Origin: a virus
IMG/VR virus record: IMGVR_UViG_3300010151_000147
Coordinates: 1 to 25,221 of that record
DNA length: 25,221 bases
Reading direction: 5' to 3' (one strand)
Positions within the stretch are counted from its first letter, which is position 1, and each line of letters starts with the position of its first letter. Both the position numbers and the translations under genes were made by a program. Below the pieces are notes generated by a model. It saw only the letters and a list, made by a program, of their open reading frames with translations. It did no database searches and was not told where the DNA came from. Of the stretch, positions 1 through 21,436 are shown piece after piece.

Positions 1-3000
1 ATATTCTTCTGAATTGAAAGATTCAAATGTAGTTGAAGTGGCTGTTGACGGAGATGGAATAGCACTTATATCTATAAATCTACCAACATTAATTGATGTG
101 GCACTTTGCTTGGTCCAACTATTTGCTGAATCAAAGTTTCTATGATAAGGAGCTAAACTTGCTGATAACACTACTCCTAACTCGGTATTTGCGATACCTG
201 ATGCTTCTGCAATAATATCTAGACTAGCGGTTTCATTTTTAAATGGAATTTGCCCTTCACCAAATCTAAACCCGTTTAAATCATTGGCATTGTCTAATGT
301 AATATCATATGATGTTTGATATCCTTCACCTGGTGGAGCAATTTCTAATTGGTCAGAAGCTTCAGAAACATGTAATATATAATCGGTACTACCATCAGAT
401 TCGCGATAAGTCTGTGCCACAACGTTGATAATACTGGCTTCAACTGATGCTGTAAATGGTGCACCTGCATCTATAAAACTTACTCCAGATAAACTAATGG
501 TTGGTTCTGTACCTGTTCCTGACCACGAATATCTTAAATCTGGGTCTGGTGAAATTGCTGGTTCATGTACTCCATCATCATAATACCAGTCAAATGCTGT
601 CCATTTCTGAGATGTATCATCATCAAATGAATGACTAAAATCAAGTTTATTGTAACCTTCATTTAACTTGGCATCCAATTCAATACGAGCTGACCAACCT
701 TGATATCCGTTAGGATAATGTACTCCGGCTGCTGATATATTTTGGGATACACCATTAAATGGTTCAACTCGAGTTAAAATTAATCTTCCTTTTCCGGCAT
801 GTGTTCCAGTAAATGATGTAGTACCTGCTGAAAATCCTCCGATATTGTAACCTGATATTGTTTGACTTGTATCTTTAACTTGATGGTCAAAATTACTTTG
901 CAGGTTAGCATTTACAACTTCAACACCATTAATTCGCACAATTAATGATCCAGAATCTCCATGATCAAATAATCGATCATTGTCTCCATAATTTCCGGTT
1001 GCATTTTGTGATATTGGTGTAAATGACATTGTGTAATTTGTTGGTCCCGTAGGAGTATCTTTGGCCATTACAATATTAGTAACAACAGATCCGGGAGCAT
1101 CTCCTGGTCCATATGCATTTGTACCTAATCCATCGGCTAATGAACCTTCGTATAATCGTCTTGTATTAGAGTTGACTTGAGGTAAACTTATACCGGAATC
1201 GCCATATGGTTCTCCGGTTGAATCATGTGAACTAAACAAATTAGCTTTAGCTGAGCTCCAATATGCTCCATCCATGCTTTGTGGTCTGGCAGGAATAACT
1301 GAGAATGTTAAAGAAGAATTGCCAGATGAACCACTACCAGGTAATATATCCGATCCTGACACGTTTATAGTGAATTCTTTTACTTCGGTAAAATCGTCCA
1401 TACTAGCATTTGATATTGTTAATGAACCGGTATCTTCATTACCTGAATCGCCAGTAACTGGAGAAAATGATAATTCACTCTCTAATTCGGTATATAATAT
1501 GTTCAAATATTGAGGGAATGTTAATATACTTTCTGATGTTATTGGTGGTGCGGATGCTGATATACCAGATATAATATCTACTACTATATCATTTGCAGAA
1601 TCATATGTCACATATTTGTCAATATCTACCGATGATGAAAAGAATGATGATCCAGTCTGTGGTGTTACGAATACAGATGCGGTACGTGGTCCTATTACTG
1701 TTATAATACTATCAGTTGGTGTTGTCTGCGAAAAAGTTGATATATCTGTATTTTTATGTTTAAATTCATGATCAATGTTACTAACCGTCAAAGTTTTTAC
1801 ACCTTGCGCCATTTCAATAGGTACAAATGATGATGTGTATGATGTGGATTGATTCCCATCAACTGCATACCATGAAGATGTTACGGAACTTGATACATCT
1901 GTAGATCCTGTATTAAATCTTATAGTATGTGAATTGCCATTATATCCGTTAATTGTAAATACACTTGCGGTATGATGTGGTCCAAATGGTTCAGCGATAT
2001 CTGCTAACAGCCTTACGCTTGTTAATTGTTGTCTCGCAGTTTCAGTTGGATATCCGGCATTTATCGATTTAGTTGCTTCCGTTACAGTGTTACCATGCAG
2101 TATTGTGGTGGTACGAGCAGCTGTTCCTATACCAGAACCGGATACTGTTTCAGCTTCAATACGAAGATTTGTAATTGCGGTTGCTGGTGAAGGAGCAATT
2201 GTTAAGTTTTGTTGCGATTCAATTGATTTATTTAAACCATCTCCGGTGAAATCTGTATCTGCGTAAGTTCCTATTACAGCGCTACTAGTGTTGACAATTA
2301 ATCCAATGCCATAGTCCCCGGCTGCAAAAGTAAAAGTATCATTAAATGACGATGTGTAATGTGTTACAAATTGCCCATTATTATTAAGCAATCGATCTGA
2401 TCTACTTGAAGTATCTAAACTAGCGGTATGCAATGCAAATCCATGCTGTTTGGTTTCTTCGCCAATTACTGACATGGTAAATTCAGTTGGGAAATGAGCA
2501 AAACCAATTGGCTCAGTTATACTTGTTAATACTCGTACTCGTACTGCAGCACTACCAGACCAGATATCACCTATTGTATCTGCATCAGAAGCAGATATGG
2601 TACGATTGAATCCGTATAATAATGTTCTGGTTACACCGGTGGTACCGTTATATTCTCCTTCGGAAGAACTATAAAATGTTTCAATTTCTACTTTTGCATT
2701 TGAAACTTCTAACGGTTTTGAAGCTGATACTGTAAACCATGATGATGCCGATGTTAAATATATATTTGGATTCGACCACGCAGCTGGGTGCATTAAATTG
2801 GTAATTCCAGTAGGATCAATTGTCGTTGCTGCATTTTCTCCAGAAGGATGTAATCCATGAGCATAACCATCATCTGGAATTGCGTCTATTGTACTATCCG
2901 GATTAAATGCATTATGATGATAACCATGCCATATATTTGCGTAATATGTGGAAATATCGGTATCCACGTCATGCGAATTATTAGGTAATGCTAATCCTAT

Positions 3001-6000
3001 CCATGATGATGTATATGATACTTTTAATTGGCTTGTATCAGGATCATATGCAGATTGAGAATAATATATATCTGCAGATGATGTACTAAATACTGGACTT
3101 GCTATCTTAAGAGATGTCCCCGTTGATCCATCAAATGCTGTATGATTTGATTTATTTATTTGAGTTAATATAGATGCCGTATGATGTAATGGTCCTACTG
3201 GTTCTTCTATATCTGCTAAAATACGGAATTGTAACATTGATGACGTAGAATATATACCAGGATGTCCATCTAATCCAGTTGTATTAGCTCTAGTCAATGT
3301 TTCACCATATAATATAGATCTTGAAACGTCAGAAGCATTATTATCTAAATTTGCAATATTTTGTCTACCAATATTAGAACCACCAAATGATTCATATTCA
3401 ATTCTAACATTTTTTATAATTGGTGCTGCGGTATCATTTACTACCAATTGAGTTGACTCACCAGACGTTGTTACAAATCCACTCAAATCATTTGGTATAT
3501 GAGTAATACTTCCGGAAGTATATTTCCATGTCAATGATGAATTATCACTTGATGATAACTGCCGACCAATCCATGATGATGTATAATGAGATACTAATCT
3601 ATCTTGGCTATCATATGCAATTTCAGATGACGCAGTATCAGTTGATGCCGTTGAAAATATTCGTGAATTTGTAAATATTTCATCACCACCTGGCTCTGAC
3701 CATTCTTCTGTAAATAAAGAACTTGTATGTAATGGACCTAACGGTTCAGTTATAGTAGTTAATATACGGAATCGTGATACTGAATGAGATGCATATACAG
3801 ATGCAGAATCATGATTTTCAAATGAAGCCGAATCTGCTGTAGTATGTCTAGGTACGCCATATAATACCGTACGCATTGCATCAGTACTTCCTGTTTCTGA
3901 ATACCCAAATGTCTCTGTTTCATATACAATATTAGTAATTGCAGTTGGTGTCGTATCATTTACTATCATTGTCGTGGGAGTGAATGAACTTGAATTTGCA
4001 GAATTTTCTCCGTACGGATCATGTTTTACAGTAGTTGATATGCTCCATGTATCAGGTGCTAACGCCTTTCCTTCAAATGATGTGGTATATTCAGTTACAA
4101 ATTCTCCAACTTCTGTGAAGAATGATCGAGATGTTTCAAACCCGGCTGATGCAGTACCAAATGATATTGTTTCAGTTTTGGTAGCATCGTCGTTAAACAT
4201 TTTTTCAATAACTGATGCAGTATGATGTAAAGGTCCTACCGGTTCTGTTATAGTTGCGGTTATACGGAATCTTGCAACAGAATGTGATGCATATGAACCA
4301 GAATTCACGTGCGATTCGTATGATGCAGAATTGATATCTGTGGTAGTATTTCCATATAACACTGTACGAGTACTATTTTGTGCAGGTATATTTGAATGGC
4401 CAAACGTTTCAGTCTCTGTTTTAAAGTTTGAGAATAAGGTTGGTTGGGTATCTTTTATGTTGATCGATGCTGATTTTATTATAGCAGTATTTAATACCAC
4501 TACGCTTTCATCAACTGGTTCATGTGTTATTTGGCCTATTGTATATATCCAATTTGTTCCGGTATCAAAATTTGAAGATGATAATTGTTGTCCTATCCAG
4601 GATGATGTATATTCAGAAACTAAATTTCCATCTGAATTATATATAGAACTCGATGATTCAAAATTGTTTGGTTTTGACGTATCAAGAACAATATTATCAG
4701 TTACTGATGTTTCTGATAATTCTAATTCGTAAAATTCAATTTCAGATATACCGTATAAATCTGTATCCTCTATTTCTATTTTATAATAAGATATTGGAGT
4801 TGATACATTTAACGTATCACTTATAACATCATGATCAGAAACAGAACTATTTCCAATTAACGAATAATTCAAATTGTCAGTACTTCCGTAAATTTTCATT
4901 GGAACTGATATACCTAAGGTCCAATTAGATTTAATTATTATTTGCTGTATACGACGTGGAGTTTCAAATTTCCATACAATTGTAGTGTTACTATCACTTA
5001 AATTGACATTTGCATCAGTAGCGCCATCAAATAATTCTGTCATATCTTCGTCTTGAGTCGGAGTTACACTCAATACTTCTCCTAAACTATTCATGTCAGA
5101 TACACGAGCCAATGTTCCGGTGTCTGTAGCATAATAAAGTTTTTGTATTGTTGATCCGGTAATATGATATCCAATCGGTTCGATAATACGAGCTTTAAAT
5201 TGGAATTGAGTTACTGACTGCGATGCATATAATGAAGCGGAGTCATGATTTTCCCAAGACAAACTACTAGTATCTGCAATTGTATGATGCGGTACTCCGT
5301 ATAATACCTTTCTTTGACTATCGCGAGTAGCTATTCCAGAATATCCAAAAGTTTCTGTTTCTAATAATATGTTATCTATAATAGTTGCAGGCGTATCATG
5401 TACTGTCATTATAGTAGCAACACCGGATGCGGATACAAATCCTGTTTCTCCGTAAGGATTATGAGTAAATGAACCTGATGTAAATGTATATTGTACTGAT
5501 GTATTTGCAGATGCACTTAATTGATGTCCTATATAAGATGATGTATAACTAGTTACTAATCGATTAGAGCTATCATAAGCACTCGACGAATCAAATACAT
5601 CTGTCGATCCGGTATGAAAATTCAATATACTTGAAGTACTATATATAGGAGAATTAATTATTTGTTCAATATTAGAAATATGATGTAAAGGACCTACTGG
5701 TTCTGTTATTCGCATTCTCATTTTAAATCGCGTTACTGAATGTGAAGCATATAATGAAGCAGAATCATGAGTTTCCCAAGATAAGCTTTGACTAGTTTTA
5801 TTTGTAACACGGCGATCGCCGTATAATACTGTACGTAATGTATTTCTACTATCTACTTCCGAATATCCACACGTTTCTGTTTCATAAATAATTTGGTCAA
5901 TTTGAGTTTTGGTAGTATCATTAACTACCAATTGTGTTGAATCTCCAGATGCGGTTGTAAATTTATTTTCCCCGGTCGGTTCATGTAATATGCTTCCAGA

Positions 6001-9000
6001 AGTATATGTCCAAGTTTTAGCAGAACCAATACTAGAAGATAATTGTTGACCAATCCATGATGATGTGTAATGTGCAACTAATCTATCTAGATCATCATAT
6101 GCAATCTCGGAAGATGCGGTATCTGTAGATGCAGAACTAAAATGTATTGAAGAACTAAATGCTTGATTATCACTACTGTTTGTCCATACTTTTTCAAATA
6201 GCGATGCTGTATGTAAAGGACCAACTGGTTCAATAATACGAGCACGTATTCTAAATCTTGTTACAGATTGCTGGGCATATTCATCTACTTTATCATGATA
6301 TTCAAATGAAGATGAATCTGGTAATGTATGATGAGGTACTCCATATAACACCGTACGCATTGCATCAGTACTACCTTCTTCTGAATAACCTACTATTTCT
6401 GTTTCATAAACAACATGATCAATTTGTGTAGGCAGAGTATCTGTCACTGTTAAAGTCGTAGCAGTAAATGAACTTGAATTTGCAGAATTTTCTCCGTACG
6501 GATCATGTACTACCGAACCAGTTGATATGCTCCAGGTATCAGGTGCTAATGTTTTTCCGATCCAAGATGAAGTATATTCAGTTACAAATTCTCCTACTTC
6601 TGTGAAGAATGATCGAGATGCTTCAAACCCGGAGGAGGCAGTACCAAAGCTAATAGTTTCAGTTTTTTCGGCTTCATTATTAAACATTTTCTCGATAACA
6701 GATGCAGTATGCTGCAAAGGACCTACTGGCTCTGTAATAGTTATTAACATTCGTGTTCTTGCAACAGAATGCGATGCATATGAACCAGAATTTGCATGAG
6801 ATTCATATGATGCAGAATTGATATCTGTGGTAGTATTTCCATATAATACAGTTCTTCCAGATATCTGTATTGGTATATTAGAATGACCAAACGTTTCAGT
6901 TTCTGTTTTAAAGTTTGAAAATACGGTTGGTTGAGTATCAAACACTGTTACGGTTGTCGAATCACCAGATGCTGTTGTAAATCCTGTTTCTCCGGTAGGT
7001 TTATGTAAAATTGATCCAGAAGTATATTTCCATTGTTTACCAGAATTAAAGTCTGATGATGATAATTGTACTCCTATCCAAGATGATGTATATAATGATA
7101 CAAATTCATTTGAAGAATTATATGTAAATGTAGCAGATGCTGTATCTGTAGATGCGGTACTAAAATGAATTGTATCATTTAATGATGTCTCTCCAGGTGC
7201 AGTCCAAACTTTTTCAAAACGTGATGCTGTATGTAAAGGTCCTATCGGTTCAATAATACGAGCTCTTATTCTAAATCGCGATACTGATTGCGATGCATAT
7301 AATGAAGCAGAATCGTAATTTTTCCAAGACAAACTACTAGTATCTGCAGTTGTATGATGTGGTACTCCATACAATACCTTTCTAGTAGTATTTACACTTT
7401 CTACTTCCGAATATCCAAATGTTTCTGTTTCGTATACAATATCAGATATAGCTGTTTGGCTTGTATTATTAACTATCATTGTTGTACTAGTAAATGAACT
7501 TGAATTTGCAGAATTTTCTCCAGCAGGGTCATGCGTTACTGAACCAGTTGATATGCTCCAGGTATCAGGTGCTAACGCTTTTCCAATCCAAGATGAAGTA
7601 TATTCAGTTACAAATTCTCCAACTTCTGTGAAGAATGATCGAGATGCTTCAAACCCGGCTGATGCAGTACCAAATGATATTGTTTCAGTTTTAGTAGCAT
7701 CATTATTAAACATTTTCTCGATAACAGATGCAGTATGCTGCAAAGGACCTACTGGTTCAGTTATGGTTGCCAATACTCGAAATCTTGCAACAGATTGAGA
7801 AGCATAGCTTCCGGAATTTGCATGAGATTCGTATGATGCTGAATCAATATCTGTTGTAGTATTTCCATATAATACCGTACGATTTATTTCTTGAATAGGA
7901 ATTTCCGAATAACCGAATGTTTCAGTTTCTGTTTTAAAGTTTGAAAATATGGTTGGCTGAGTATCAAACACCGTCACAGTAGTGGATTCACCACTAGCGG
8001 TTGTGAATCCTAATTCATTCGTAGGTTCATGTAAAATTGAACCGGAAGTATATTTCCAAGTCTCACCAGTATTAAAGTTGTTTGATGCTAATTCTTCACC
8101 TAACCATGATGATGTATAATGAACAACTAATTGATTTGATGTATTATATGCAATGTCAGATGATGCCGTATCTGTAGATGCGGTACTAAAATGTATTACC
8201 TTAGTTATTGGTGATTCATTACCTGCTGTCCATGCTTTTTCAAATCGCGATGCTGTATGTAAAGGACCTATTGGTTCTGTAATTGTTGCTAATACACGGA
8301 ATCGTGTTACTGATTGCGATGCATATAATGAAGCAGAATCATGATTTTCATAACTTGAAGAATCTTCATTAGTTTTATGAGCAACACCATATAATACCTT
8401 TCTAGTAGTATTTGTAGATGGTTCTTTAGAATAACCAAACGTTTCTGTTTGATATCTTATATTTGTTATTTGTGTTGCCGGAGTATCATGAACTGTTACA
8501 GTACCTTCTTGTTGAGCCGCTTTATTTATTCCATTTTCAGACTGAGACTCTAACGAAGATGTTACATTCGCATCTTTTATTTGATATATGAAATCTTCAG
8601 ATCCGCCATGATTTGATTCTCCTAGTTCGTTATTTTTACCAGACTGCCATGATGATGTATAATCTGTTACTAATCTTTTTTGAGAATCGTATATTGAGTT
8701 TATAAAAAGAAAGTCTGATGATCCTGTAGTAGCAGTTTTAATAGGATAAGTTGGAACGATTCCTCGTTGTATTGGAATTTGTATGGTTCCTACTGCTGGC
8801 CCTACCGGTTCTGTTACTTTAAATTTAACACGATATCTTAATACTGACTGCGATGCATATTGATCTGCTTTGATATGATTTTCAAATGATGATGAAATTC
8901 CTGATATTTGATGATTTTCACCGTATAATACAGTACGAGATGTTTCAGTTTCTCCAGTACTTCCATCTTCATTTGATGCACTATATCCATGTTCTTCAAA

Positions 9001-11673
9001 CTCTATAATTCTATTTGTTAATTGAATTTGGTCAGTATCATGTACAACTAATTGAGTTGATAGTCCAGAGGCAGTTGTAAATCCGCTCAAATCATCCGGT
9101 GTATGTGTTATACTTCCGGAAGTATATTTCCATGTCAATGATGAATTATCACTTGATGATAACTGCCGACCAATCCATGATGATGTGTAACGCGCAAATA
9201 AACGATTTGAAGAATCATAGTCAATTGCAGATGAAGCTGTATCTGTAGATGCAGTACTAAAATGAATTATATCATTTAATGATGTCTCTCCAGGTGCAGT
9301 CCAAACTTTTTCAAATCGCGATGCTGTATGATGTGGTCCGAATGGTTCTGTAATATCTGTTAAAACGCGGAATCTGGAAATAGAATGAGATGCATATACA
9401 GATGCAGAATCATGATTTTCAAATGAAGATGAATTTGCCAATGTATGCCTAGGCACTCCATATAACACTGTACGTATTGTATCAGTACTTCCTGTTTCTG
9501 AATATCCATATGTTTCTGTTTCGTATACAATGTTAGTAATCTGTGTTGCAGGTGTATTACTCACAGATACTTCTGAATATGTTCCTGGAGTTATTGTCCG
9601 GCCGGCGTTTGTAGCAGAATCAAATGAAGCGCTAAATGTATACTCACCAGGTTTCAAATTGAAATTAATCCATGATGATGTGTAATGACCAACTAATCTA
9701 TTTTGATTATCATATGCAATTTCAGATGACGCAGTATGAGTAGCGCCAGATCCAGTATGAAATTCAAATACATGAGAATGTGGATGACTACTAGCAGATG
9801 TTTCTAATGTTGATATCATTTTGGTATGATGAGGTCCAAACGGTTCTATTACAGTTGCTAATAATCGTAATCTTACAACCGATTCACTTATATATTCTGC
9901 AGATTTTTCATACCCTTCTAAACTTGATGTTTCTGTAACTTGTAATGATGATGTGAATCCATATAATACACTGGCAGTTCTTTCAAATGCTCCTTCACCG
10001 GTTAAAAATGATCCAGATTCTACTTCTACACGTATATTTGATATTTCAATATCTGGTACTGGATCAATTATAAGTGATGCAACTGAACCAGTTTGTGCAG
10101 AAAAATGTTGATAATCGCCATGTGCTATATAATTTGTATTGGCTAAATCAGATGCACGGCCAGAAAATCCGTAATTAAATGTTTGAGGTGATAATGCAAA
10201 TGCAGTAAATCCTAAACTATGAGTTGGCGAATATCCTCCTACGTTAGAAAGTAATAGATCTGCGCCAGGTGCTAAAAATGTAGATGCAGTTGCACGAAAT
10301 AGACCAGTTGCAGTACTTCCACTAAATCGGAACAATTGGAAATGTCTTCGAGGTATGCCAGAATCGCTTTGAAGACGTAAATGGACATCGCTTCCAGAAA
10401 ATATTTTTACTGTTGTGAAATGTAGCGGATCTGGATCATAATCTGCAGGTTCTGTTATATCTGCCATAACTGCTACTCGTACTAATGATGAAGTATAACG
10501 GTTAGGTAACGTATCAATATTGTCACGTGTTATCACATCATCATATAACACAGTTGTTCTATACGATTGAGTGGCATACCCGGTATAAGACCCAGATTCG
10601 AATTCCAATCTAATATTATTGATACTGGCAGTATTTGGTGGTACAATTGACATGCTATATTCTATAGATGATGATTGGAATATATACCAGTTATCAAACA
10701 TTGTCATTTCAAAATTTTCTTCACATGGTTGCATAGTAGTTATGTTTACTATACGATCATTGGTTCCAGAAGTTACATCATAATTTGTAATACTAGCAGA
10801 AAAGAATAATTGAGAATTTGGTATAGCTGATGCATTCGCGCCGGCTCCGGGTTGATCTGCATAATCTCCTGATTCATCAAATGTACCAGTAGCAATCAAA
10901 ATTGATGAATCCGGAATATTTGAATCTGGATGAGTCATTGTCAATGCATAATTAGGTACAGTTGTTTCTACTGCTGTTGGATCGGTTGTTAAACGACTTG
11001 CAGAAAATATTCTAATAAAATCACCTTGATCTAAATTTGGTTCTTCTGATGCTGTAAAGTTCATAACATAATTTAAACTATTTGCATCATGTGCAATTTG
11101 TCGTACAGCATCGGATTGTACTGGTGCAATTATTTGTGGAGGCACATTAACGTACCCTTTTATAAATGCAGATGTATATACGGCTTGAGTGGATCCAGCA
11201 CTACCAGTATCTGTTGCATATACTATATAACGATGTACTCCAGGTGCTAAGTCGTTTGTAAATGGAGCATTTCCTTGCGAATCTGGAGGATCTGTTCTAT
11301 CAACACCTACATAAAAATCTTCAGAACCAGATTGTAATGTTTCAAATTGATTAGTAAGTTTAACAAAAACAAAATGATTTGGATTAAAATCTGCAGATGA
11401 TGTTGTTTCTATACGATAATATCCTGCGGATGCCGTTGCACCAGCACCTGCATCTAATTCGGTGACATGATCAACAGATGATGCAGGAGAACCAGAAATA
11501 CCAGAACCTGATCCGGCAAAAAATACTGCAGTTCCTATACCGGTTAAATTCGAACCATCTCCAATAAATGAATCAGCTTGAACTGTACCAGTAACGTTTA
11601 TTCCATTTTTAAATTCAGCAGTGCTCCCTGATTGCACCCATTGACTGCTCGAAAATATATGCTTTCCCGCCAT
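1..11673 (-). CDS. Giant repetitive adhesin/fibre-type structural protein, partial (at least 3891 aa)
   Basis: The frame is open from an ATG at 11673 to the window edge with no stop, so the C-terminus lies outside; an in-frame TAG directly upstream makes this the most upstream ATG. It is Ser/Thr/Gly-rich with very few cysteines. Residues 1-160 form an N-terminal domain with FIGDGSNLTGI, a motif style common in phage tail fibres, and match the 155-aa protein encoded just upstream. About residues 410-3240 form a tandem array of modules of about 170 aa, with signatures ETETFGYSE, RTVLYG, ITEPxGPLHTAS, YTSSWIG and WKYTSGS. A discoidin-like domain interrupts the array at about 2200-2319. Residues 3240-3891 are non-repeated, beta-rich sequence. 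Seen: size, repeats, frame. Inferred: a fibrous virion protein binding the host surface or spanning the tail. A GGAA sequence about 10 bases before the ATG may serve as a weak ribosome site. The exact function is unknown. Confidence 0.9.
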   Translation of the reverse strand, partial: MAGKHIFSSSQWVQSGSTAEFKNGINVTGTVQADSFIGDGSNLTGIGTAVFFAGSGSGISGSPASSVDHVTELDAGAGATASAGYYRIETTSSADFNPNHFVFVKLTNQFETLQSGSEDFYVGVDRTDPPDSQGNAPFTNDLAPGVHRYIVYATDTGSAGSTQAVYTSAFIKGYVNVPPQIIAPVQSDAVRQIAHDANSLNYVMNFTASEEPNLDQGDFIRIFSASRLTTDPTAVETTVPNYALTMTHPDSNIPDSSILIATGTFDESGDYADQPGAGANASAIPNSQLFFSASITNYDVTSGTNDRIVNITTMQPCEENFEMTMFDNWYIFQSSSIEYSMSIVPPNTASINNIRLEFESGSYTGYATQSYRTTVLYDDVITRDNIDTLPNRYTSSLVRVAVMADITEPADYDPDPLHFTTVKIFSGSDVHLRLQSDSGIPRRHFQLFRFSGSTATGLFRATASTFLAPGADLLLSNVGGYSPTHSLGFTAFALSPQTFNYGFSGRASDLANTNYIAHGDYQHFSAQTGSVASLIIDPVPDIEISNIRVEVESGSFLTGEGAFERTASVLYGFTSSLQVTETSSLEGYEKSAEYISESVVRLRLLATVIEPFGPHHTKMISTLETSASSHPHSHVFEFHTGSGATHTASSEIAYDNQNRLVGHYTSSWINFNLKPGEYTFSASFDSATNAGRTITPGTYSEVSVSNTPATQITNIVYETETYGYSETGSTDTIRTVLYGVPRHTLANSSSFENHDSASVYASHSISRFRVLTDITEPFGPHHTASRFEKVWTAPGETSLNDIIHFSTASTDTASSAIDYDSSNRLFARYTSSWIGRQLSSSDNSSLTWKYTSGSITHTPDDLSGFTTASGLSTQLVVHDTDQIQLTNRIIEFEEHGYSASNEDGSTGETETSRTVLYGENHQISGISSSFENHIKADQYASQSVLRYRVKFKVTEPVGPAVGTIQIPIQRGIVPTYPIKTATTGSSDFLFINSIYDSQKRLVTDYTSSWQSGKNNELGESNHGGSEDFIYQIKDANVTSSLESQSENGINKAAQQEGTVTVHDTPATQITNIRYQTETFGYSKEPSTNTTRKVLYGVAHKTNEDSSSYENHDSASLYASQSVTRFRVLATITEPIGPLHTASRFEKAWTAGNESPITKVIHFSTASTDTASSDIAYNTSNQLVVHYTSSWLGEELASNNFNTGETWKYTSGSILHEPTNELGFTTASGESTTVTVFDTQPTIFSNFKTETETFGYSEIPIQEINRTVLYGNTTTDIDSASYESHANSGSYASQSVARFRVLATITEPVGPLQHTASVIEKMFNNDATKTETISFGTASAGFEASRSFFTEVGEFVTEYTSSWIGKALAPDTWSISTGSVTHDPAGENSANSSSFTSTTMIVNNTSQTAISDIVYETETFGYSEVESVNTTRKVLYGVPHHTTADTSSLSWKNYDSASLYASQSVSRFRIRARIIEPIGPLHTASRFEKVWTAPGETSLNDTIHFSTASTDTASATFTYNSSNEFVSLYTSSWIGVQLSSSDFNSGKQWKYTSGSILHKPTGETGFTTASGDSTTVTVFDTQPTVFSNFKTETETFGHSNIPIQISGRTVLYGNTTTDINSASYESHANSGSYASHSVARTRMLITITEPVGPLQHTASVIEKMFNNEAEKTETISFGTASSGFEASRSFFTEVGEFVTEYTSSWIGKTLAPDTWSISTGSVVHDPYGENSANSSSFTATTLTVTDTLPTQIDHVVYETEIVGYSEEGSTDAMRTVLYGVPHHTLPDSSSFEYHDKVDEYAQQSVTRFRIRARIIEPVGPLHTASLFEKVWTNSSDNQAFSSSIHFSSASTDTASSEIAYDDLDRLVAHYTSSWIGQQLSSSIGSAKTWTYTSGSILHEPTGENKFTTASGDSTQLVVNDTTKTQIDQIIYETETCGYSEVDSRNTLRTVLYGDRRVTNKTSQSLSWETHDSASLYASHSVTRFKMRMRITEPVGPLHHISNIEQIINSPIYSTSSILNFHTGSTDVFDSSSAYDSSNRLVTSYTSSYIGHQLSASANTSVQYTFTSGSFTHNPYGETGFVSASGVATIMTVHDTPATIIDNILLETETFGYSGIATRDSQRKVLYGVPHHTIADTSSLSWENHDSASLYASQSVTQFQFKARIIEPIGYHITGSTIQKLYYATDTGTLARVSDMNSLGEVLSVTPTQDEDMTELFDGATDANVNLSDSNTTIVWKFETPRRIQQIIIKSNWTLGISVPMKIYGSTDNLNYSLIGNSSVSDHDVISDTLNVSTPISYYKIEIEDTDLYGISEIEFYELELSETSVTDNIVLDTSKPNNFESSSSIYNSDGNLVSEYTSSWIGQQLSSSNFDTGTNWIYTIGQITHEPVDESVVVLNTAIIKSASINIKDTQPTLFSNFKTETETFGHSNIPAQNSTRTVLYGNTTTDINSASYESHVNSGSYASHSVARFRITATITEPVGPLHHTASVIEKMFNDDATKTETISFGTASAGFETSRSFFTEVGEFVTEYTTSFEGKALAPDTWSISTTVKHDPYGENSANSSSFTPTTMIVNDTTPTAITNIVYETETFGYSETGSTDAMRTVLYGVPRHTTADSASFENHDSASVYASHSVSRFRILTTITEPLGPLHTSSLFTEEWSEPGGDEIFTNSRIFSTASTDTASSEIAYDSQDRLVSHYTSSWIGRQLSSSDNSSLTWKYTSGSITHIPNDLSGFVTTSGESTQLVVNDTAAPIIKNVRIEYESFGGSNIGRQNIANLDNNASDVSRSILYGETLTRANTTGLDGHPGIYSTSSMLQFRILADIEEPVGPLHHTASILTQINKSNHTAFDGSTGTSLKIASPVFSTSSADIYYSQSAYDPDTSQLKVSYTSSWIGLALPNNSHDVDTDISTYYANIWHGYHHNAFNPDSTIDAIPDDGYAHGLHPSGENAATTIDPTGITNLMHPAAWSNPNIYLTSASSWFTVSASKPLEVSNAKVEIETFYSSSEGEYNGTTGVTRTLLYGFNRTISASDADTIGDIWSGSAAVRVRVLTSITEPIGFAHFPTEFTMSVIGEETKQHGFALHTASLDTSSRSDRLLNNNGQFVTHYTSSFNDTFTFAAGDYGIGLIVNTSSAVIGTYADTDFTGDGLNKSIESQQNLTIAPSPATAITNLRIEAETVSGSGIGTAARTTTILHGNTVTEATKSINAGYPTETARQQLTSVRLLADIAEPFGPHHTASVFTINGYNGNSHTIRFNTGSTDVSSSVTSSWYAVDGNQSTSYTSSFVPIEMAQGVKTLTVSNIDHEFKHKNTDISTFSQTTPTDSIITVIGPRTASVFVTPQTGSSFFSSSVDIDKYVTYDSANDIVVDIISGISASAPPITSESILTFPQYLNILYTELESELSFSPVTGDSGNEDTGSLTISNASMDDFTEVKEFTINVSGSDILPGSGSSGNSSLTFSVIPARPQSMDGAYWSSAKANLFSSHDSTGEPYGDSGISLPQVNSNTRRLYEGSLADGLGTNAYGPGDAPGSVVTNIVMAKDTPTGPTNYTMSFTPISQNATGNYGDNDRLFDHGDSGSLIVRINGVEVVNANLQSNFDHQVKDTSQTISGYNIGGFSAGTTSFTGTHAGKGRLILTRVEPFNGVSQNISAAGVHYPNGYQGWSARIELDAKLNEGYNKLDFSHSFDDDTSQKWTAFDWYYDDGVHEPAISPDPDLRYSWSGTGTEPTISLSGVSFIDAGAPFTASVEASIINVVAQTYRESDGSTDYILHVSEASDQLEIAPPGEGYQTSYDITLDNANDLNGFRFGEGQIPFKNETASLDIIAEASGIANTELGVVLSASLAPYHRNFDSANSWTKQSATSINVGRFIDISAIPSPSTATSTTFESFNSEEY
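4720..5070 (-). other. Discoidin / F5/8 type C-like domain inserted in the repeat array
   Basis: About residues 2200-2319 of the giant protein do not follow the module pattern. They carry the marks of the F5/8 type C (discoidin, galactose-binding-like) fold in order: an N-terminal LFDG, then VWKFETPRRIQQIIIKS, then PMKIYGSTDNLNYSLI, then YYKIEIED, and a final ISEIEFYELE. These correspond to the family's LFDG start, the core 'V..I.I' strand, the 'IYGS.D...W..L' strand, the 'YY+' strand and the closing 'I.E.E.Y' strand. Members often bind carbohydrates or lipids. Seen: motif order. Inferred: sugar binding. The domain adds about 420 bases to an otherwise regular module spacing. Confidence 0.72.
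6466..7761 (-). repeat. Near-identical type-B modules 1026 bp apart, with a third copy at ~3979-4248
   Basis: About 270 bases starting at 6466 and again at 7492 are nearly the same at DNA level; the offset is exactly 1026 bases, or 342 codons, equal to one A+B super-unit. A third close copy starts near 3979 and lacks one codon relative to the other two. All three share long exact runs, for example in the segment encoding EFVTEYT. Such similarity at synonymous sites suggests recent duplication or gene conversion rather than selection on protein alone. Confidence 0.85.
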
Positions 11674-11678
11674 CTACA

Positions 11679-12146
11679 TTATTCCGGATTAATTATAACT
11701 GTAGTACCTACCGTTGACGTTTGTTTTGATGCGGTACTCATTGCTAATAATAAATATTGATGAACGCCAGTACCTAATGTTTCTGTAACAGTATTTGTAG
11801 AGACTAAACCATTTTGAGTTCCTGTATAATCTGATACTTCGTTCCATCCATTAGTTGTTAATTTTAAAAATGTAAAATGATTTACGCTACCATTTGACGC
11901 AGATGCAGACAATAGAATTTGATGAGTGCCACCAGATCCAGTTATCCATTCATTAAATGTAGGAGGATTTCCTGAAGCTGAACCAAAAAATAAAGTTATA
12001 TCTGATGTTTGAAAATTTAAATTACTTAACAGTGATCCATTACCTACTAATGTACCGTTAACAGAACTTCCGGATAATCCAGATTCAAATACAGCAGTTG
12101 ATCCAGATTGTATAAACGATCCACTAAATTGCTGTACACCAGCCAT
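11679..12146 (-). CDS. 155-aa structural protein paralogous to the N-terminus of the giant protein
   Basis: This small Ser/Thr/Gly-rich protein has no cysteine or obvious membrane segment. It begins MAG...FSGSFIQSGSTAVFESG, which parallels the giant protein's MAG...FSSSQWVQSGSTAEFKNG. Further on, GNGSLLSNL matches GDGSNLTGI, NHFTFLKLT matches NHFVFVKLT, and GTGVHQYLLLAMSTAS matches APGVHRYIVYATDTGS. The whole protein is thus equivalent to about the first 165 residues of its neighbour without any repeat modules. It overlaps the upstream gene by one base (TAATG) and has AAGGA about 8 bases before the start; the giant gene begins 5 bases after its stop. Likely a virion component sharing the same docking or folding domain. 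Function otherwise unknown. Confidence 0.85.
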   Translation of the reverse strand: MAGVQQFSGSFIQSGSTAVFESGLSGSSVNGTLVGNGSLLSNLNFQTSDITLFFGSASGNPPTFNEWITGSGGTHQILLSASASNGSVNHFTFLKLTTNGWNEVSDYTGTQNGLVSTNTVTETLGTGVHQYLLLAMSTASKQTSTVGTTVIINPE

Positions 12147-13183
12147 TACATTTTCCTTATCATTGCCTTAATAACTCCGCCATTAATATTTGTTTCTAAT
12201 GATTGTGCTATTATTTTACCAAATAAACGTTGTTCAAATATTTGATCAGGTGGTACCGCTTTTCCATAACCTAATCGATTGCTAGTTATAATATAATCAC
12301 CTTCATATACAGGTCCATCAACTAAAACAGGCTCCGCTCCCATTATTACCGGATAATCAGATCCGGATGTTACTATTCCCATTACTAATGCATCTGCTTG
12401 AGCGTCACATGGTACCATTTGACCGGCTTTTGAGACCAGTACAGTACCTGTTTGTAGTTGACCTATACCAGTAGTTTCTAAATTAATCTCATGTATACCA
12501 CCAAAGAAAGTATCTACCGCATATAATGCATCCCATTTAGCAGTCGGTGATCCTAAATCTCTAGTACCATCACCATCCGGAGTTACATCTGATGCAATAT
12601 TTGTGAATGATGATATACCTTCTCCGCCAGCAACACTTCCTGTTGTATAAATTCTTCCATCTGCTGAATTTTGTACTAAAATTTTATAATTGGTAGCACT
12701 AGTTTCAGATGCACTAATATATAACAAACCACTTGCACTTATATCACCCGAGGCTGTTATATTAGAAAATTTGACATCACTACTCGTTATAGCAAATGAT
12801 GCAGTATCCGAAGGAACTAAAAATGATGCAGTATCGGAATTAGTAACAAATGAAGCAGTATCAGAATTTCGTATATACGTATCTGGTATTTGAGTTATAA
12901 TCTGTTTCCAATTGGATAATGTAGTCCATTCTGACCCACTTAATAATACATCACCTGATCCAGTTTGAGAATATAAATAATATTCATAACTACCGGTGGT
13001 ACTAACTATAGTTCCTAAACGTCGTTTACCAGGAGCTGCTAATAATCCAGTACCAATTTTTGCTAAACTTTCAGAGTTAAAACTATCTATTTGTAATGTA
13101 GTACCTCTCAGGTTATTTGCATCCATAGATGCTTCCGAACCGGAGTTATTTACATGTAATATGGAACCGAACTTAACTGGCAT
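12146..13183 (-). CDS. 345-aa fibre-type structural protein with TASF repeats
   Basis: The N-terminal part (about 1-110) is beta-type with no family I recognise. At about residues 103-130 there are three nine-residue TASF repeats (NSDTASFVT, NSDTASFLV, PSDTASFAI), followed by the segment FSNITASGDISASG. The C-terminal part (about 190-345) contains TRDLGSPTAKWDALYA, then a compact beta domain (GTVLVSKAGQMVPCDA, ALVMGIVTSG, VYEGDYIITS). This style occurs at the end of phage fibre proteins and resembles, without proof, self-processing or chaperone-like C-terminal domains such as Peptidase_G2. It starts with a TAATG overlap on the preceding gene. Probably a virion surface or tail-fibre subunit; the exact role is not determined. 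Confidence 0.82.
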   Translation of the reverse strand: MPVKFGSILHVNNSGSEASMDANNLRGTTLQIDSFNSESLAKIGTGLLAAPGKRRLGTIVSTTGSYEYYLYSQTGSGDVLLSGSEWTTLSNWKQIITQIPDTYIRNSDTASFVTNSDTASFLVPSDTASFAITSSDVKFSNITASGDISASGLLYISASETSATNYKILVQNSADGRIYTTGSVAGGEGISSFTNIASDVTPDGDGTRDLGSPTAKWDALYAVDTFFGGIHEINLETTGIGQLQTGTVLVSKAGQMVPCDAQADALVMGIVTSGSDYPVIMGAEPVLVDGPVYEGDYIITSNRLGYGKAVPPDQIFEQRLFGKIIAQSLETNINGGVIKAMIRKM

Positions 13184-15132
13184 TATGCATCATCCAATGT
13201 TAATGTATCACCTGCTGAATATGCATTTTTACCAGCTGTTTGATAAACGTTATAATTTACTTCATTACTATGTCTAGAGTGACTAGCCTCACCTAACAAA
13301 GAAAAAGTTCCAGTTTCAATTTGTACACCGTTTAATATTACTGATGATAATGTACCATATGTTGCTGGATATACTATATATGTGAAATTGTTGCTATTTG
13401 CTACACTTGATGGTAAAGTAAGTATTAATGTGTTAGGAAAATTAGTTGTACTAGTCGTGTTAAGCAATGTTTGGCTATCAGTTGTAAAATCGGAATCTGT
13501 TAATCCAGTACCAGTACCGGAACCAGATATATCTGATAATATATCTGCTAATACTGGATCATTTAAACCAGTACCGTCATTTGATGATCCTCCAAAAAAT
13601 ATCGGATGTTTCCATGTTATGCTATCAGTTCGATCGTTTGTCGTCGTAGTCGACGTGCCTTCTTCATCAGTACCATTCAAGAAAAATGTGGTAGCAGCTG
13701 CAGTTGTTTTTCTTAAAGTAAAACTATCAAATGATATTGATGTTCCAGAAAATGCTAAATTATTGAATGTAATGCCGGCAGATGTTAATGCTAATGAAGC
13801 AAATGGTGCGCCGTTACTGTCACTACTAGTAGCAAATGTTCCACCGGTGGCTGTATCTGTTTCACCAACTTCCAATGTACTTGCTAATCCGCTTATTGTA
13901 AACGAATTCAAAGTAGGTACTTGATATTGTACTAACATTTGTCTAAGAATACTTTCTATAGAAGATCCAGCATTAAATGTCGTTCCATTAGTAATACCAC
14001 CAAAATTTGAACCTAATGTCACAGTCAGTCCTGATTGCAAATTTGATTCTATAGAGCTAGTCTCGGAAGTTGTAACAAAAGAACCTGTCTGTCCATTAAA
14101 TGAACCGGATATTCCCGCCGATGTAAACGGCGATGTTGTTAATACATCAGATCCATTTATTTGTAAACTACTACCAGAAATAAATACAGATCCACTAAAT
14201 TGATGAGCGTCAGTGACAGTATCACCAAATATAGTCGAACCACTACTAAATGACTGAGTCATATAAGTTACTGATGATGATACTATGTAATTTTCTGCAA
14301 TTATATCACCCAATGCAGTTATATTATCAAATGTAGCATTTTGATTTAATATTGCAAATGATGATGTACTAGAGTTAGATACCACATTCGATGTTAATGC
14401 AAATGATGCAGTATCGGCTGGTATTAAAAATGATGCTGTATCCGAAGGAACTAAAAATGATGCAGTATCCGAAGGAACTAAAAATGATGCTGTATCCGAT
14501 GGCACTAAAAATGATGCTGTATCCGAAGGTACTAAAAATGATGCTGTTTGAGAATTAGTAACAAATGAAGCAGTTTGAGAATTAGTAACAAATGAAGCAG
14601 TTTGAGAATTTTGTATATAAGTGCTTAAATCTTGATCACCGGTGTTAATACCTGATAAATTAGATCCGCTAATTTCTCCGGATGCTGATATACTAGTAAC
14701 ACCTATTATTTTATTAGAATTTAAATTTAAAGTTTGAGTTGCTGTATGATTTCCTAGGTCATCGCCACCTGCCAGTGCTGCGGCAACAGAAGCAGATACA
14801 TCTGACAGACCAGGTATTGATAAAACACCATTAATGGTGGCATTTGCAGCTATTTCTAAATGATTAAATGACCCTGTCCCGCTTGCACTTATATTTGCAG
14901 AAGCTGTTATGTTAGAAAATAATACGTCGCTATTTGTTATAACAAAAGAACCAGTATCAGAATTTGTAACAAAAGAACCAGTATCAAAATTTGTAACAAA
15001 AGATCCGGTTTGATTGGACGTGATAATATTTATTGCCGAGCCAGTACCATCTGCAAAAGCACCGTTCTCCGTTTGGACTACACGTTGGTATGTGTCTTGT
15101 ATATTCTGGCCTGTTAAATTGTCAAGAGCCAT
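13183..15132 (-). CDS. 649-aa structural protein with TGSF/TASF nine-residue repeats
   Basis: Residues about 40-75 hold three TGSF repeats followed by FSNITASANISASG. A segment with HTATQTLNLNSNKIIGV follows, then eight tandem TASF repeats (about 173-245), then FDNITALGDIIAEN. About residues 370-410 read GGITNGTTFNAGSSIESIL and ILRQMLVQYQVPTLNSFTIS, which from memory is a recurring element of marine T4-like structural proteins. The C-terminal 120 residues contain a compact domain (FTYIVYPATYGTLSSVILNG). The protein is Ser/Thr-rich, lacks cysteine and has no signal peptide. An AAGG sequence lies about 8 bases before the ATG. Likely a fibre or baseplate-associated subunit; inference from composition and neighbours only. 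Confidence 0.82.
   Translation of the reverse strand: MALDNLTGQNIQDTYQRVVQTENGAFADGTGSAINIITSNQTGSFVTNFDTGSFVTNSDTGSFVITNSDVLFSNITASANISASGTGSFNHLEIAANATINGVLSIPGLSDVSASVAAALAGGDDLGNHTATQTLNLNSNKIIGVTSISASGEISGSNLSGINTGDQDLSTYIQNSQTASFVTNSQTASFVTNSQTASFLVPSDTASFLVPSDTASFLVPSDTASFLVPSDTASFLIPADTASFALTSNVVSNSSTSSFAILNQNATFDNITALGDIIAENYIVSSSVTYMTQSFSSGSTIFGDTVTDAHQFSGSVFISGSSLQINGSDVLTTSPFTSAGISGSFNGQTGSFVTTSETSSIESNLQSGLTVTLGSNFGGITNGTTFNAGSSIESILRQMLVQYQVPTLNSFTISGLASTLEVGETDTATGGTFATSSDSNGAPFASLALTSAGITFNNLAFSGTSISFDSFTLRKTTAAATTFFLNGTDEEGTSTTTTNDRTDSITWKHPIFFGGSSNDGTGLNDPVLADILSDISGSGTGTGLTDSDFTTDSQTLLNTTSTTNFPNTLILTLPSSVANSNNFTYIVYPATYGTLSSVILNGVQIETGTFSLLGEASHSRHSNEVNYNVYQTAGKNAYSAGDTLTLDDA
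14398..14613 (-). repeat. Eight tandem 27-bp repeats encoding the TASF nonapeptide
   Basis: The 27-base unit encodes nine residues, either LVPSDTASF or VTNSQTASF. Eight consecutive copies are visible. The inner SDTASF copies are almost identical at DNA level, differing at a few third positions, while the copies nearest the N-terminus have Q in place of D. Smaller groups of the same unit occur at about 14935-15010 (three TGSF copies) in the same gene and at about 12786-12876 (three TASF copies) in the next gene. Copy number is likely to vary by slippage or recombination. Confidence 0.9.
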
Positions 15133-16028: not shown

Positions 16029-16694
16029 TTAATGATATCCATTCAATAATTCTAGTAAATCATCTATCGCGCCATGTCTATGAGAATCTTCTAATACAGT
16101 TTTAAATACATATTTTGAATTTACTAATTTTGACATGTCATGATATGCAGAATAATTTTTATCTTTAAGATCTATTTGGTACGAATCACCACAGAATATC
16201 ATTTTCGAATCTTTACCTAATCTACCAATTGCCATTGCCAATTGTGATCTAGTTAAATTTTGAAATTCATCTACAATTACAACAGCATTATCAAATGTAC
16301 GGCCTCTAAAATGTGCCAATGAACATAATTCAATTGATTCATTTTTTTCCATAGATTCTAATTTATCCGGTTTATTATATACTTTACGCATATTTGATCG
16401 AATAGGTACGAGCCATGGCTCCATTTTTTCTTTTTCAGAACCTGGTAGGAAACCATTGTCTTCAGTAGCAATTGTTGGTCTAGTAATTACTATTTTATTA
16501 TACTGACGTTTAAAAAATTGATCTAAAGCTACTTGTACCGCTAATAATGTTTTTCCGGAACCAGCTTTACCTACTATAAAATTAAACGGATGTTCTAAAA
16601 TTTGAGTTTTTGCAGTTTTTTGTTCTGCAGATAATGATAATGAAAACCGAACTGCGCCTTTTGGTGGAGTTTTTTCTGTATTTGCTTTTGCCAT
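16029..16694 (-). CDS. phoH: PhoH-like ATPase
   Basis: This 221-residue P-loop protein matches the PhoH family along its length. The Walker A motif is GKAGSGKT at about residues 42-49. The family motif ITRPT follows at about 70-74, then FLPGSEKEKMEPWL, and FRGRTFDNAVVIVDEFQN with the Walker B Asp-Glu at about 142-143. GDSYQIDL at 169-176 is the sensor-like segment. PhoH proteins bind and hydrolyse ATP and are very common in marine phages, but their phage role is unsettled; phosphate-stress and RNA-linked roles have been proposed. The gene has a strong AAGGAG site 9 bases before the ATG and follows the capsid terminator, so it probably begins a new transcript. Confidence 0.95.
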   Translation of the reverse strand: MAKANTEKTPPKGAVRFSLSLSAEQKTAKTQILEHPFNFIVGKAGSGKTLLAVQVALDQFFKRQYNKIVITRPTIATEDNGFLPGSEKEKMEPWLVPIRSNMRKVYNKPDKLESMEKNESIELCSLAHFRGRTFDNAVVIVDEFQNLTRSQLAMAIGRLGKDSKMIFCGDSYQIDLKDKNYSAYHDMSKLVNSKYVFKTVLEDSHRHGAIDDLLELLNGYH

Positions 16695-16804: not shown

Positions 16805-18517
16805 CTATACAGTATCTAAACCTTCAACATAAATTTTACCATAGAATTCAGGACGAACCATTTTCTTAGCATAACGAGTCATTACACCTTTTCTAGGAGT
16901 AAAGTTTTCAGGATCGTATACTAATGGTGTCATGATTAATGGAATATATGGAGAATATACAGCACCTGTTTCAAGGAACTGAGATCCACGATAACCCATT
17001 AATATGGCATTTTCAGTCATGTATGGATTTTTATAAACTTGGAATCTATTATTAATAGCTCCAACTTTTTGTACACCCATTGCAAACTGCATTTTATCGC
17101 CATCTGTATCAGCAGCATATCCTGGAATAGATTCTAGAATAGTTGCAACAGAAGGAGAACATACTAGGAAGTTAGCTCCACCTCTTAAAGTTAATTGGTG
17201 AATTTTATTCGAAACTTTTTGTACTTTAGTACCTAAAGTTTGGAACCATGTTCCTTGGTTATATGCTTGGGCATCTGCATTTGAATTAACAAATGAGTTT
17301 GAAGCTGCATCAAATGATTGACCAACTCTAGCAGACCATCTTTCAACTGTTTGAGCATTTTGAATTAACATGTCTAAAATTTCTAAATCAATTTCTTGCG
17401 AAACATATTCAGATAACATGCTAGTTAATTCAGCTTCAGCATCAATTGAATGATATGCATTTAAGTCTTGAGCAAATTCAGGACTCCAAACAGCCTTCAA
17501 TTTACGTGTTTTGGCAACGATGGCCTCTGAACGCATTTGAAGATCAATTTCTGGAATATCTAATGCAGTTGAACTAGGAGATGCTTGGTTAGGAACTTTA
17601 TTTCCTGCAATATCTTCAAAGTCACCTCTAGAAGTTACACCTGGTTGTTTATGATATATAACTTTTAATGATTGAAGATCGTCATCTCCATCAACTAAGA
17701 AATATACATAATCACCTGATGCACGAGTAAATTCTGGATAAACAGCATCGACACCTGTTCCATCAATATTAAATGCTCTTACGCCATTTACATCATATCC
17801 AGGAATCACATCTTTACCAACAGCTACAATATGAGGATTAGATCCATCAGCAACTACAGATGCAGAAAACTCAGAATTAAAGTTAGTAAATATATTAAAT
17901 CCTACTTGCGTCAAATCTGTATTATCAGTAAACGTATTTGCAGTAGACCAAGAACCAGTTGCAATTTTACCGGTTGCTTTAGATGCTAAAGTTTCTATTG
18001 ATGATGATACATCATTAATAGTGTATCCAAAACGTCCAGCTCCATAAAGACCTTCAGTAGCAGTATTTACATTACCTTTAGTGGCATCAGTTACACCAAA
18101 TACAGAATCATCTTGAGATGTTCTAGCTTTACCAGTTAAGAAATCATTTCCACCTTCATTTCCATCAGTACCTTGCTTAGTAGCATATTTAAAGTCTAGA
18201 TAAAATATCAGACCTGATGGTAAGTTCATTGGTTGTACAGAAACAAAGTCTTTTGCAGCAATTTCAGCAAAAATACGACGAACTAATGGTAGAGCTACCC
18301 CTGACCATTCTTCACCACTTCCAGCAGTATTTGTTACATTGGCTTCTGATACCAATTGCTTGGCTTGGTTCTCTAAAAGAACGGCCATGCCTTTTCTTTC
18401 AACCTCATTAGACATTCCTTCCAATAGGCCGGTCTTTTCCCACTTGCGTTCAAGTGCGATTGCTGCGGCATTTTGGTTGGCTTGAGCATTTTGAGGTAAT
18501 AATGAATTTATATTCAT
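16805..18517 (-). CDS. 23: Major capsid protein, T4 gp23-like
   Basis: This 570-aa protein forms the icosahedral shell. It matches gp23 at several points: ALPLVRRIFAEIAAKDFVSV with VQPMNLPSGLIFYLDFKY near residues 75-110, then IPEIDLQMRSEAIVAKTRKL, LKAVWSPEFAQDLNAYHSID, AEAELTSMLSEYVSQEIDL, and a C-terminal FYGKIYVEGL. It is somewhat longer than T4 gp23 (521 aa), mostly through a polar insert at about 110-290. The helical first 58 residues look like the propeptide removed by the prohead protease; LVSE-AN at 55-60 fits a gp21-type site, though this is inference. The ATG has an unusually strong purine site (AGGAAAGGAAA). It follows the scaffold gene by 13 bases and precedes a strong terminator, as expected for the most highly expressed gene. 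Confidence 0.97.
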   Translation of the reverse strand: MNINSLLPQNAQANQNAAAIALERKWEKTGLLEGMSNEVERKGMAVLLENQAKQLVSEANVTNTAGSGEEWSGVALPLVRRIFAEIAAKDFVSVQPMNLPSGLIFYLDFKYATKQGTDGNEGGNDFLTGKARTSQDDSVFGVTDATKGNVNTATEGLYGAGRFGYTINDVSSSIETLASKATGKIATGSWSTANTFTDNTDLTQVGFNIFTNFNSEFSASVVADGSNPHIVAVGKDVIPGYDVNGVRAFNIDGTGVDAVYPEFTRASGDYVYFLVDGDDDLQSLKVIYHKQPGVTSRGDFEDIAGNKVPNQASPSSTALDIPEIDLQMRSEAIVAKTRKLKAVWSPEFAQDLNAYHSIDAEAELTSMLSEYVSQEIDLEILDMLIQNAQTVERWSARVGQSFDAASNSFVNSNADAQAYNQGTWFQTLGTKVQKVSNKIHQLTLRGGANFLVCSPSVATILESIPGYAADTDGDKMQFAMGVQKVGAINNRFQVYKNPYMTENAILMGYRGSQFLETGAVYSPYIPLIMTPLVYDPENFTPRKGVMTRYAKKMVRPEFYGKIYVEGLDTV

Positions 18518-20830: not shown

Positions 20831-21436
20831 CTAAAACTCCGTTATGATATCAGTTATTATTCGTTCTACTTTCGCAAATTTGTTAGTAGTAGCAGACCCT
20901 TTAGATTCGTTTACTGGGGATAAAAATGCTCCATGAGTGGATGGATTAGAAACAAAGTCAAATGCAATTAATTCAAAGTCTGGTTGTACCTCTAATGTAT
21001 CTCCACCTTCTCTCATTACTTCTTTAACAGATCCCATTCCTCTAGAGGATATACCTAACCGGATTCCAGATTTGAAAAGTTCCTTTAATATATTTCCTGC
21101 AGGCGTTCCTAATACTTCTACTTTACCTACTAAGTCATCGCCTTGCCATCCCATTTCTAAGACGTTATGAGATACGTTATTTAAATTAACAACTGATGAA
21201 TCTGGGTGGTCTAATTCTCCTAATGCACGTCTTTCTTTAATAAATGTCCCTGCATAATTAGCAGCTTCTCGCATTAACGTTTCTTTAGGATAAATTCTTC
21301 CGTTTTGGTTTTTTGCTTCCGCTCTCTGAAGAACTCCCTTTACAATTAACTTACCATTATTTTGAGTTAATGATTCATTTATTGCTTGAGGTGATACTTC
21401 AAATACTGTATAATCTACTAATAATTGCTTATCCAT
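20831..21436 (-). CDS. 21: Prohead core serine protease, T4 gp21-like
   Basis: This 201-residue enzyme cleaves scaffold, core proteins and the capsid propeptide inside the prohead. The fold signatures are present: VLQRAEAKNQNGRIYPKETL near 35-54, RRALGELDHPDSSVVNL with the likely catalytic His77, IRLGISSRGMGSV with the nucleophile Ser130 or Ser131, and ELIAFDFVSNPS with Asp160 as a candidate third member. These match phage prohead proteases of the T4 gp21 type (Peptidase_S77-like). Length is close to T4 gp21 (212 aa). The C-terminal tail after NES (about 175) is likely self-cleaved. The ATG overlaps the stop of the 51-aa gene by one base (TAATG), with AAGGAAA about 5 bases upstream, so translation is coupled. 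Confidence 0.93.
   Translation of the reverse strand: MDKQLLVDYTVFEVSPQAINESLTQNNGKLIVKGVLQRAEAKNQNGRIYPKETLMREAANYAGTFIKERRALGELDHPDSSVVNLNNVSHNVLEMGWQGDDLVGKVEVLGTPAGNILKELFKSGIRLGISSRGMGSVKEVMREGGDTLEVQPDFELIAFDFVSNPSTHGAFLSPVNESKGSATTNKFAKVERIITDIITEF

Follow-up and report, generated by a model that had tools for sequence, protein, structure and literature searches.

A giant tandem-repeat gene of variable length, encoding a candidate fibre protein, in the structural gene cluster of a T4-like phage

Results

Organization of the locus

The window, by which we mean the whole stretch of DNA analyzed here (25,221 bases), corresponds to an entire IMG/VR record and carries on its minus strand a set of head genes, several fibre-like genes and one giant open reading frame (ORF). 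The head genes comprise a gp20-like portal gene (23323..25203), a gp21-like prohead protease gene (20831..21436) and a major capsid protein gene of the gp23 family (16805..18517), the last of these identified by the Pfam Gp23 model with an E-value of 2.4e-80; the portal and the protease, both T4-like markers, give the PHROG matches phrog_213 and phrog_207. Directly after the capsid gene lies a PhoH-like gene (16029..16694, family search), and such a gene is also located near the capsid gene in Flavobacterium phage immuto and Microcystis phage Mel-JY01. Two fibre-like ORFs stand upstream of the giant gene, namely a 649-aa ORF (13183..15132) with 27-bp tandem repeats, corresponding to 9-aa units, and a fibre-like ITASANISASG motif, and a 345-aa ORF (12146..13183) with fibre-like motifs; repeats of 27 bp occur in both of these ORFs, at 12793-12868, 14400-14610 and 14940-15003. 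Immediately upstream of the giant gene, a 155-aa gene (11679..12146) starts with an N-terminal module resembling that of the giant protein and ends 5 nt from it on the same strand.

Based on its gene content, the window phage can be assigned to the T4-like myoviruses, in agreement with an earlier note made from the letters alone, which had described the phage as T4-like: the portal, the protease and the capsid protein are of the gp20, gp21 and gp23 types, and a tail sheath gene (phrog_23, E=9e-74) is located downstream, outside the window, in the syntenic contig of a divergent relative, G004 (IMGVR_UViG_3300025151_000036). Among cultured phages, the closest matches of the capsid and portal proteins are those of Mel-JY01 and immuto, with 49-59% identity.

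The giant gene is followed downstream by ORFs of 1,152, 670, 321 and at least 432 aa; fibre motifs and starts of the Mtd_N type occur in some of them. Further along the cluster, G004 has a 3,701-aa gene that matches PHROG tail-fibre families and, after it, the tail sheath. The 3,701-aa gene is a second giant gene in the phage that holds the 4,106-aa relative described below, and it occupies positions 33070-44172 of the reverse complement of G004 (L123 6447-17549, minus strand). In Mel-JY01, only a few small genes separate the head genes from the sheath, so that the fibre cluster was either gained in the group of the window phage or lost in Mel-JY01.

A single open frame of 4,139 codons

The giant ORF (1..11673, minus strand) begins with ATG and extends over 3,891 codons to the window edge with 0 stops, exactly as the earlier note had read it, while the remaining five frames over the same interval contain 157-387 stops apiece. 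Given the base composition, the chance of an open run of this length is ~10^-126, and the longest open run in 100 shuffles was 153 codons. GC3 is uniform along the gene (0.12-0.18) and resembles the values for the capsid and portal genes. Because the window is the whole of its IMG/VR record, the frame is cut by the end of the contig. A sister contig of 34,045 bases from a nearly identical virus, G001 (IMGVR_UViG_3300037634_005747), aligns to the window with 99.95% identity and zero gaps across 25,163 bases, and contains the complete ORF at 13834-26253, including its stop. The earlier note had proposed a virion protein of more than 400 kDa, the product of one gene, and an extension to the left of base 1 in search of the stop; in the sister contig this stop is located 248 codons past the window edge, the window lacking these final 248 codons only, and the complete product measures 4,139 aa and 448.4 kDa, with a pI of 4.7. 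Serine and threonine together account for 26% of this protein, and cysteine is nearly absent. The giant gene is confirmed as a real gene with one uninterrupted frame.

Anatomy of the giant protein

The protein starts with an N-terminal module (aa 1-48, MAGKHIFSSSQWVQSGS..FIGDGSNLTG; 11530..11673), whose start is conserved in all relatives, and which forms part of a conserved N-terminal region (aa 1-345, 10639..11673) with 36-68% identity among G001, G003-G006 and G008. A degenerate first unit (aa 349-422, 10408..10629) precedes the tandem array proper, which consists of ~15 units of ~165 aa each (aa 540-3314, 1732..10056), with the near-invariant landmarks R..LYG,.EP.G and YTSS. One of the units is split by an inserted beta domain of ~120 aa (aa ~2199-2324, 4702..5079). 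The array is followed by a C-terminal region (aa 3315-3891, 1..1731, continuing to aa 4,139 in G001), which is common to all full-length relatives and evolves faster than the N-terminus, the last 520 aa showing 25-43% identity among relatives; searches of Pfam, PHROG and PDB sequences returned no relatives of this region outside the family.

Relatives and selection

The collection was scanned for relatives with a closer unit alignment (A2), since a first alignment (A1) was too divergent. Five distinct full-length members were obtained: the 4,139-aa protein of G001, and four complete and divergent proteins of 4,106 aa (G004), 2,911 aa (G008, IMGVR_UViG_3300020385_000006), 2,224 aa (G005, IMGVR_UViG_3300009703_000045) and 2,011 aa (G006, IMGVR_UViG_3300031143_000003, a 147-kb record). 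A further contig, G007, encodes a protein identical to the 2,011-aa protein of G006, and in G002 and G003 the giant gene is truncated inside the array by the contig ends. The N-terminus is common to all relatives, and so is the gene order, which consists of the short gene, the giant gene and a gene of 1,150-1,420 aa; a short gene of this kind stands at the corresponding position in each relative examined, and its pairing with the giant gene is also seen in G004, G006 and G008.

Selection was examined by comparing G001 with G004 (NG86) in ten blocks of 400 codons, which gave dS values of ~0.8-1.0, dN values of 0.27-0.70 and dN/dS ratios of 0.32-0.81; strict orthology is not preserved across the aligned middle, and the reliable values are those of the first blocks and of block 3201-3600, with a ratio of ~0.3-0.4. 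The final block of 130 codons yielded a dN/dS of 1.05 (0.80 over 0.76).

Evaluation of a possible assembly artefact

The earlier note had also pointed out that its reading would fail if repeats had been wrongly assembled into one frame. Such a misjoining might be suspected from the fact that the window, G002 and G003 all end within the giant gene, and from a 92-bp stretch of one unit in which the window and G001 disagree. The aligned part of these two contigs contains 13 mismatches, six of them at 3492-3583, within unit u14, and seven at 91-158. At the u14 cluster, G001 matches unit u3 exactly over 105 bases and the window does not, which indicates either an exchange from copy to copy or an assembly that borrowed reads from the other unit. 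Bases 1-62 of the window diverge from G001 in frame, with the protein still homologous, and scattered differences reach as far as position 158; those at the window edge (1-158) are mostly amino-acid-changing, and they probably represent strain variation or contig-end noise. Against a misjoined frame stand the shortness of the exact repeats within the gene (at most 77 bp in the window, 105 bp in G001, 47 bp in G004 and 24 bp in G005), the DNA identity of mostly 65-85% between the units compared, the gap-free alignment of the sister contig, the evidence of purifying selection, and the same architecture in complete, divergent relatives. Given these short exact repeats and this shared architecture, expansion of the giant gene during assembly is unlikely, and an artefactual origin of the frame as a whole is largely refuted and extremely improbable.

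Variation in the length of the array

In the unit trees, end units cluster across phages according to their position, with supports of ~0.90-0.99: unit 02 of the window phage joins the second units of other phages, and units 15, 16 and 17, its last three, join their last units. The middle units often cluster within a lineage: u6, u8 and u13 of the window phage share 83-85% DNA identity and are duplications within this lineage, and units 2-5 of G006 form a clade of their own. This pattern of orthologous ends and lineage-clustered middles indicates that the ends are old and that the middle has been expanded or contracted separately in each lineage. As judged from these trees, the length of the gene is varied by gain or loss of middle units with retention of the end units, so that the shaft ranges from ~5 to ~15 units between fixed ends, inside one gene.

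Structure models and family searches

A homologous insert is present in the same loop of a unit of G004. The insert of the window phage is the best part of the AlphaFold model for its stretch, with pLDDT values mostly of 70-79. Among the confident PDB matches returned by Foldseek, CBM32/F5-8C domains rank best (probability 1.00, TM to target of 0.56-0.65). By sequence, the insert has no match in Pfam, and thus no CBM32/F5-8C family membership on that basis. The modelled fold resembles a sugar-binding CBM32/F5-8C module, and the insert may accordingly bind sugars. Another unit of G004 carries a different insert of ~230 aa (L107 12225-13004), with a weak likeness to MAM (E=0.07).

For the repeat, the model is of low confidence (mean pLDDT 60), and Foldseek returns weak matches to tandem-Ig structures; the matches of the repeat unit also include phage Ig/FN3 proteins. 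No Pfam Ig family scored above the cut-off on the repeat, Big_8 reaching only E=0.35 in a relative. An Ig-like fold of the ~165-aa units is suggested by these models. For the C-terminal region, the AlphaFold model was built on an alignment of 3 sequences and is unusable (mean pLDDT 32).

The giant protein escapes the family libraries and cultured-phage records that were searched. Neither the whole protein nor its N-terminus or C-terminus matched a family in Pfam or PHROG; NCBIfam gave only weak rows far below the cut-off for the giant protein, and a PDB sequence search gave nothing usable. With tblastn, the giant protein, its shortest relative and the downstream gene had no match among 50,697 phage records, and genome contigs of bacteria and archaea, scanned with a profile, yielded no relative of the giant protein. 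We did not find the family described in the giant-fibre literature, the search covering the open literature, with most subscription papers outside it. The gene is, moreover, easily lost in annotation, since its frame is cut by the ends of contigs.

Discussion

We interpret the giant protein, with a probability of about 0.7, as a single-chain, virion-attached fibre, that is, an adhesin with a conserved anchor, an Ig-like shaft of variable length, sugar-binding-like modules and a variable tip. A location on the virion is suggested by the position of the gene in a tail-fibre cluster, by the beta-rich, Ser/Thr-rich composition of the protein, by the N-terminal module that it shares with its neighbour and by the sugar-binding-like insert. 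In the proposed arrangement, the conserved N-terminal module would dock the fibre to the virion, ~15 Ig-like units of ~165 aa would form a beaded shaft, sugar-binding-like domains would sit in a loop of some shaft units, and the more variable C-terminal region would be the tip touching the host surface; we infer this polarity, and with it the attachment to the host and the contact with a receptor. Duplication and loss of middle units would then reset the length of the shaft, so that the same fibre may measure 2,011 aa in one phage and 4,139 aa in another. A role as tape measure was also considered and rejected, the protein consisting of Ser/Thr-rich beta repeats instead of being helical.

The neighbours of the gene are of fibre type, including the 3,701-aa gene of G004 with its PHROG tail-fibre matches, and support the fibre interpretation. 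Counting against it, no family library searched names the giant protein a fibre, the mean pLDDT of the repeat and C-terminal models is low, and the insert is not matched by Pfam at the sequence level. The location of the gene, with the head genes on one side and the tail sheath on the other, would also suit a virion appendage other than a receptor fibre, such as a neck or whisker structure or a head-surface filament that attaches the phage to polysaccharide, to a mucus-like gel or to particles, or that only spaces other fibres, and the Ig-like matches together with the sugar-binding-like inserts would fit weak adhesion to glycans. We regard this alternative as rather unlikely, however, because the neighbours resemble tail-fibre genes, giving matches to Mtd_N and to PHROG tail fibres, and because the faster-evolving C-terminus fits a receptor tip. 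The protein might, finally, act outside the virion, either within the cell or after release, for example by coating the infected cell or by binding superinfecting phage. This appears quite improbable for a gene that lies in a structural cluster, on the same strand as and 5 nt from a gene with a similar start, and whose nearly cysteine-free product has a fibre-like composition and an N-terminus unlike a signal peptide.

Phage fibres are mostly discussed in terms of tip exchange. If the fibre interpretation is correct, the genes described here may, as a tentative proposal that we hold at somewhat less than even odds, constitute an undescribed family of giant, length-variable fibres in which the duplication of middle units and the sugar-binding inserts in shaft loops, beyond tip exchange alone, tune reach and glycan binding. 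With their fixed ends and variable shaft, these proteins offer a natural series for studying how infection is affected by the length of a fibre and by binding domains mounted on its shaft.

Among known systems, the long tail fibres of T4-like phages and modular tail fibres (of the PHROG 9942/18345 type, such as the 3,701-aa gene of G004) occur in the same cluster, are likewise long and multi-domain, and have neighbours with fibre motifs; the giant protein, however, matches none of their families, and its shaft is built from a single repeat family. Klebsiella phage RaK2 gp098 was considered as a giant-fibre precedent and rejected, ORF098 having only ~595 aa. The likeness to CBM32/F5-8 type C (discoidin) domains is one of predicted fold, obtained by structure comparison without a match to the sequence family, and concerns one insert only; the likeness to the Ig-like domains of phage structural proteins is a tandem-Ig resemblance drawn from a low-confidence model, with no Pfam Ig family above the cut-off. 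In crAss-like phages, tail-associated proteins carry tandem arrays of BACON domains that have grown by sequential duplication, and a role in host binding has been proposed for them (PMC6949934). Both these arrays and the giant protein are tandem domain arrays enlarged by duplication and located near tail genes. Unlike the BACON proteins, the giant protein has no BACON match in Pfam, is composed of units of ~165 aa, reaches up to 4,139 aa, belongs to a phage of T4-like type and bears whole domains inserted in loops of its units. Of the described systems, the BACON tandem array is the nearest parallel, and the giant protein represents a new family of tandem-repeat phage proteins, probably of the adhesin or fibre type.
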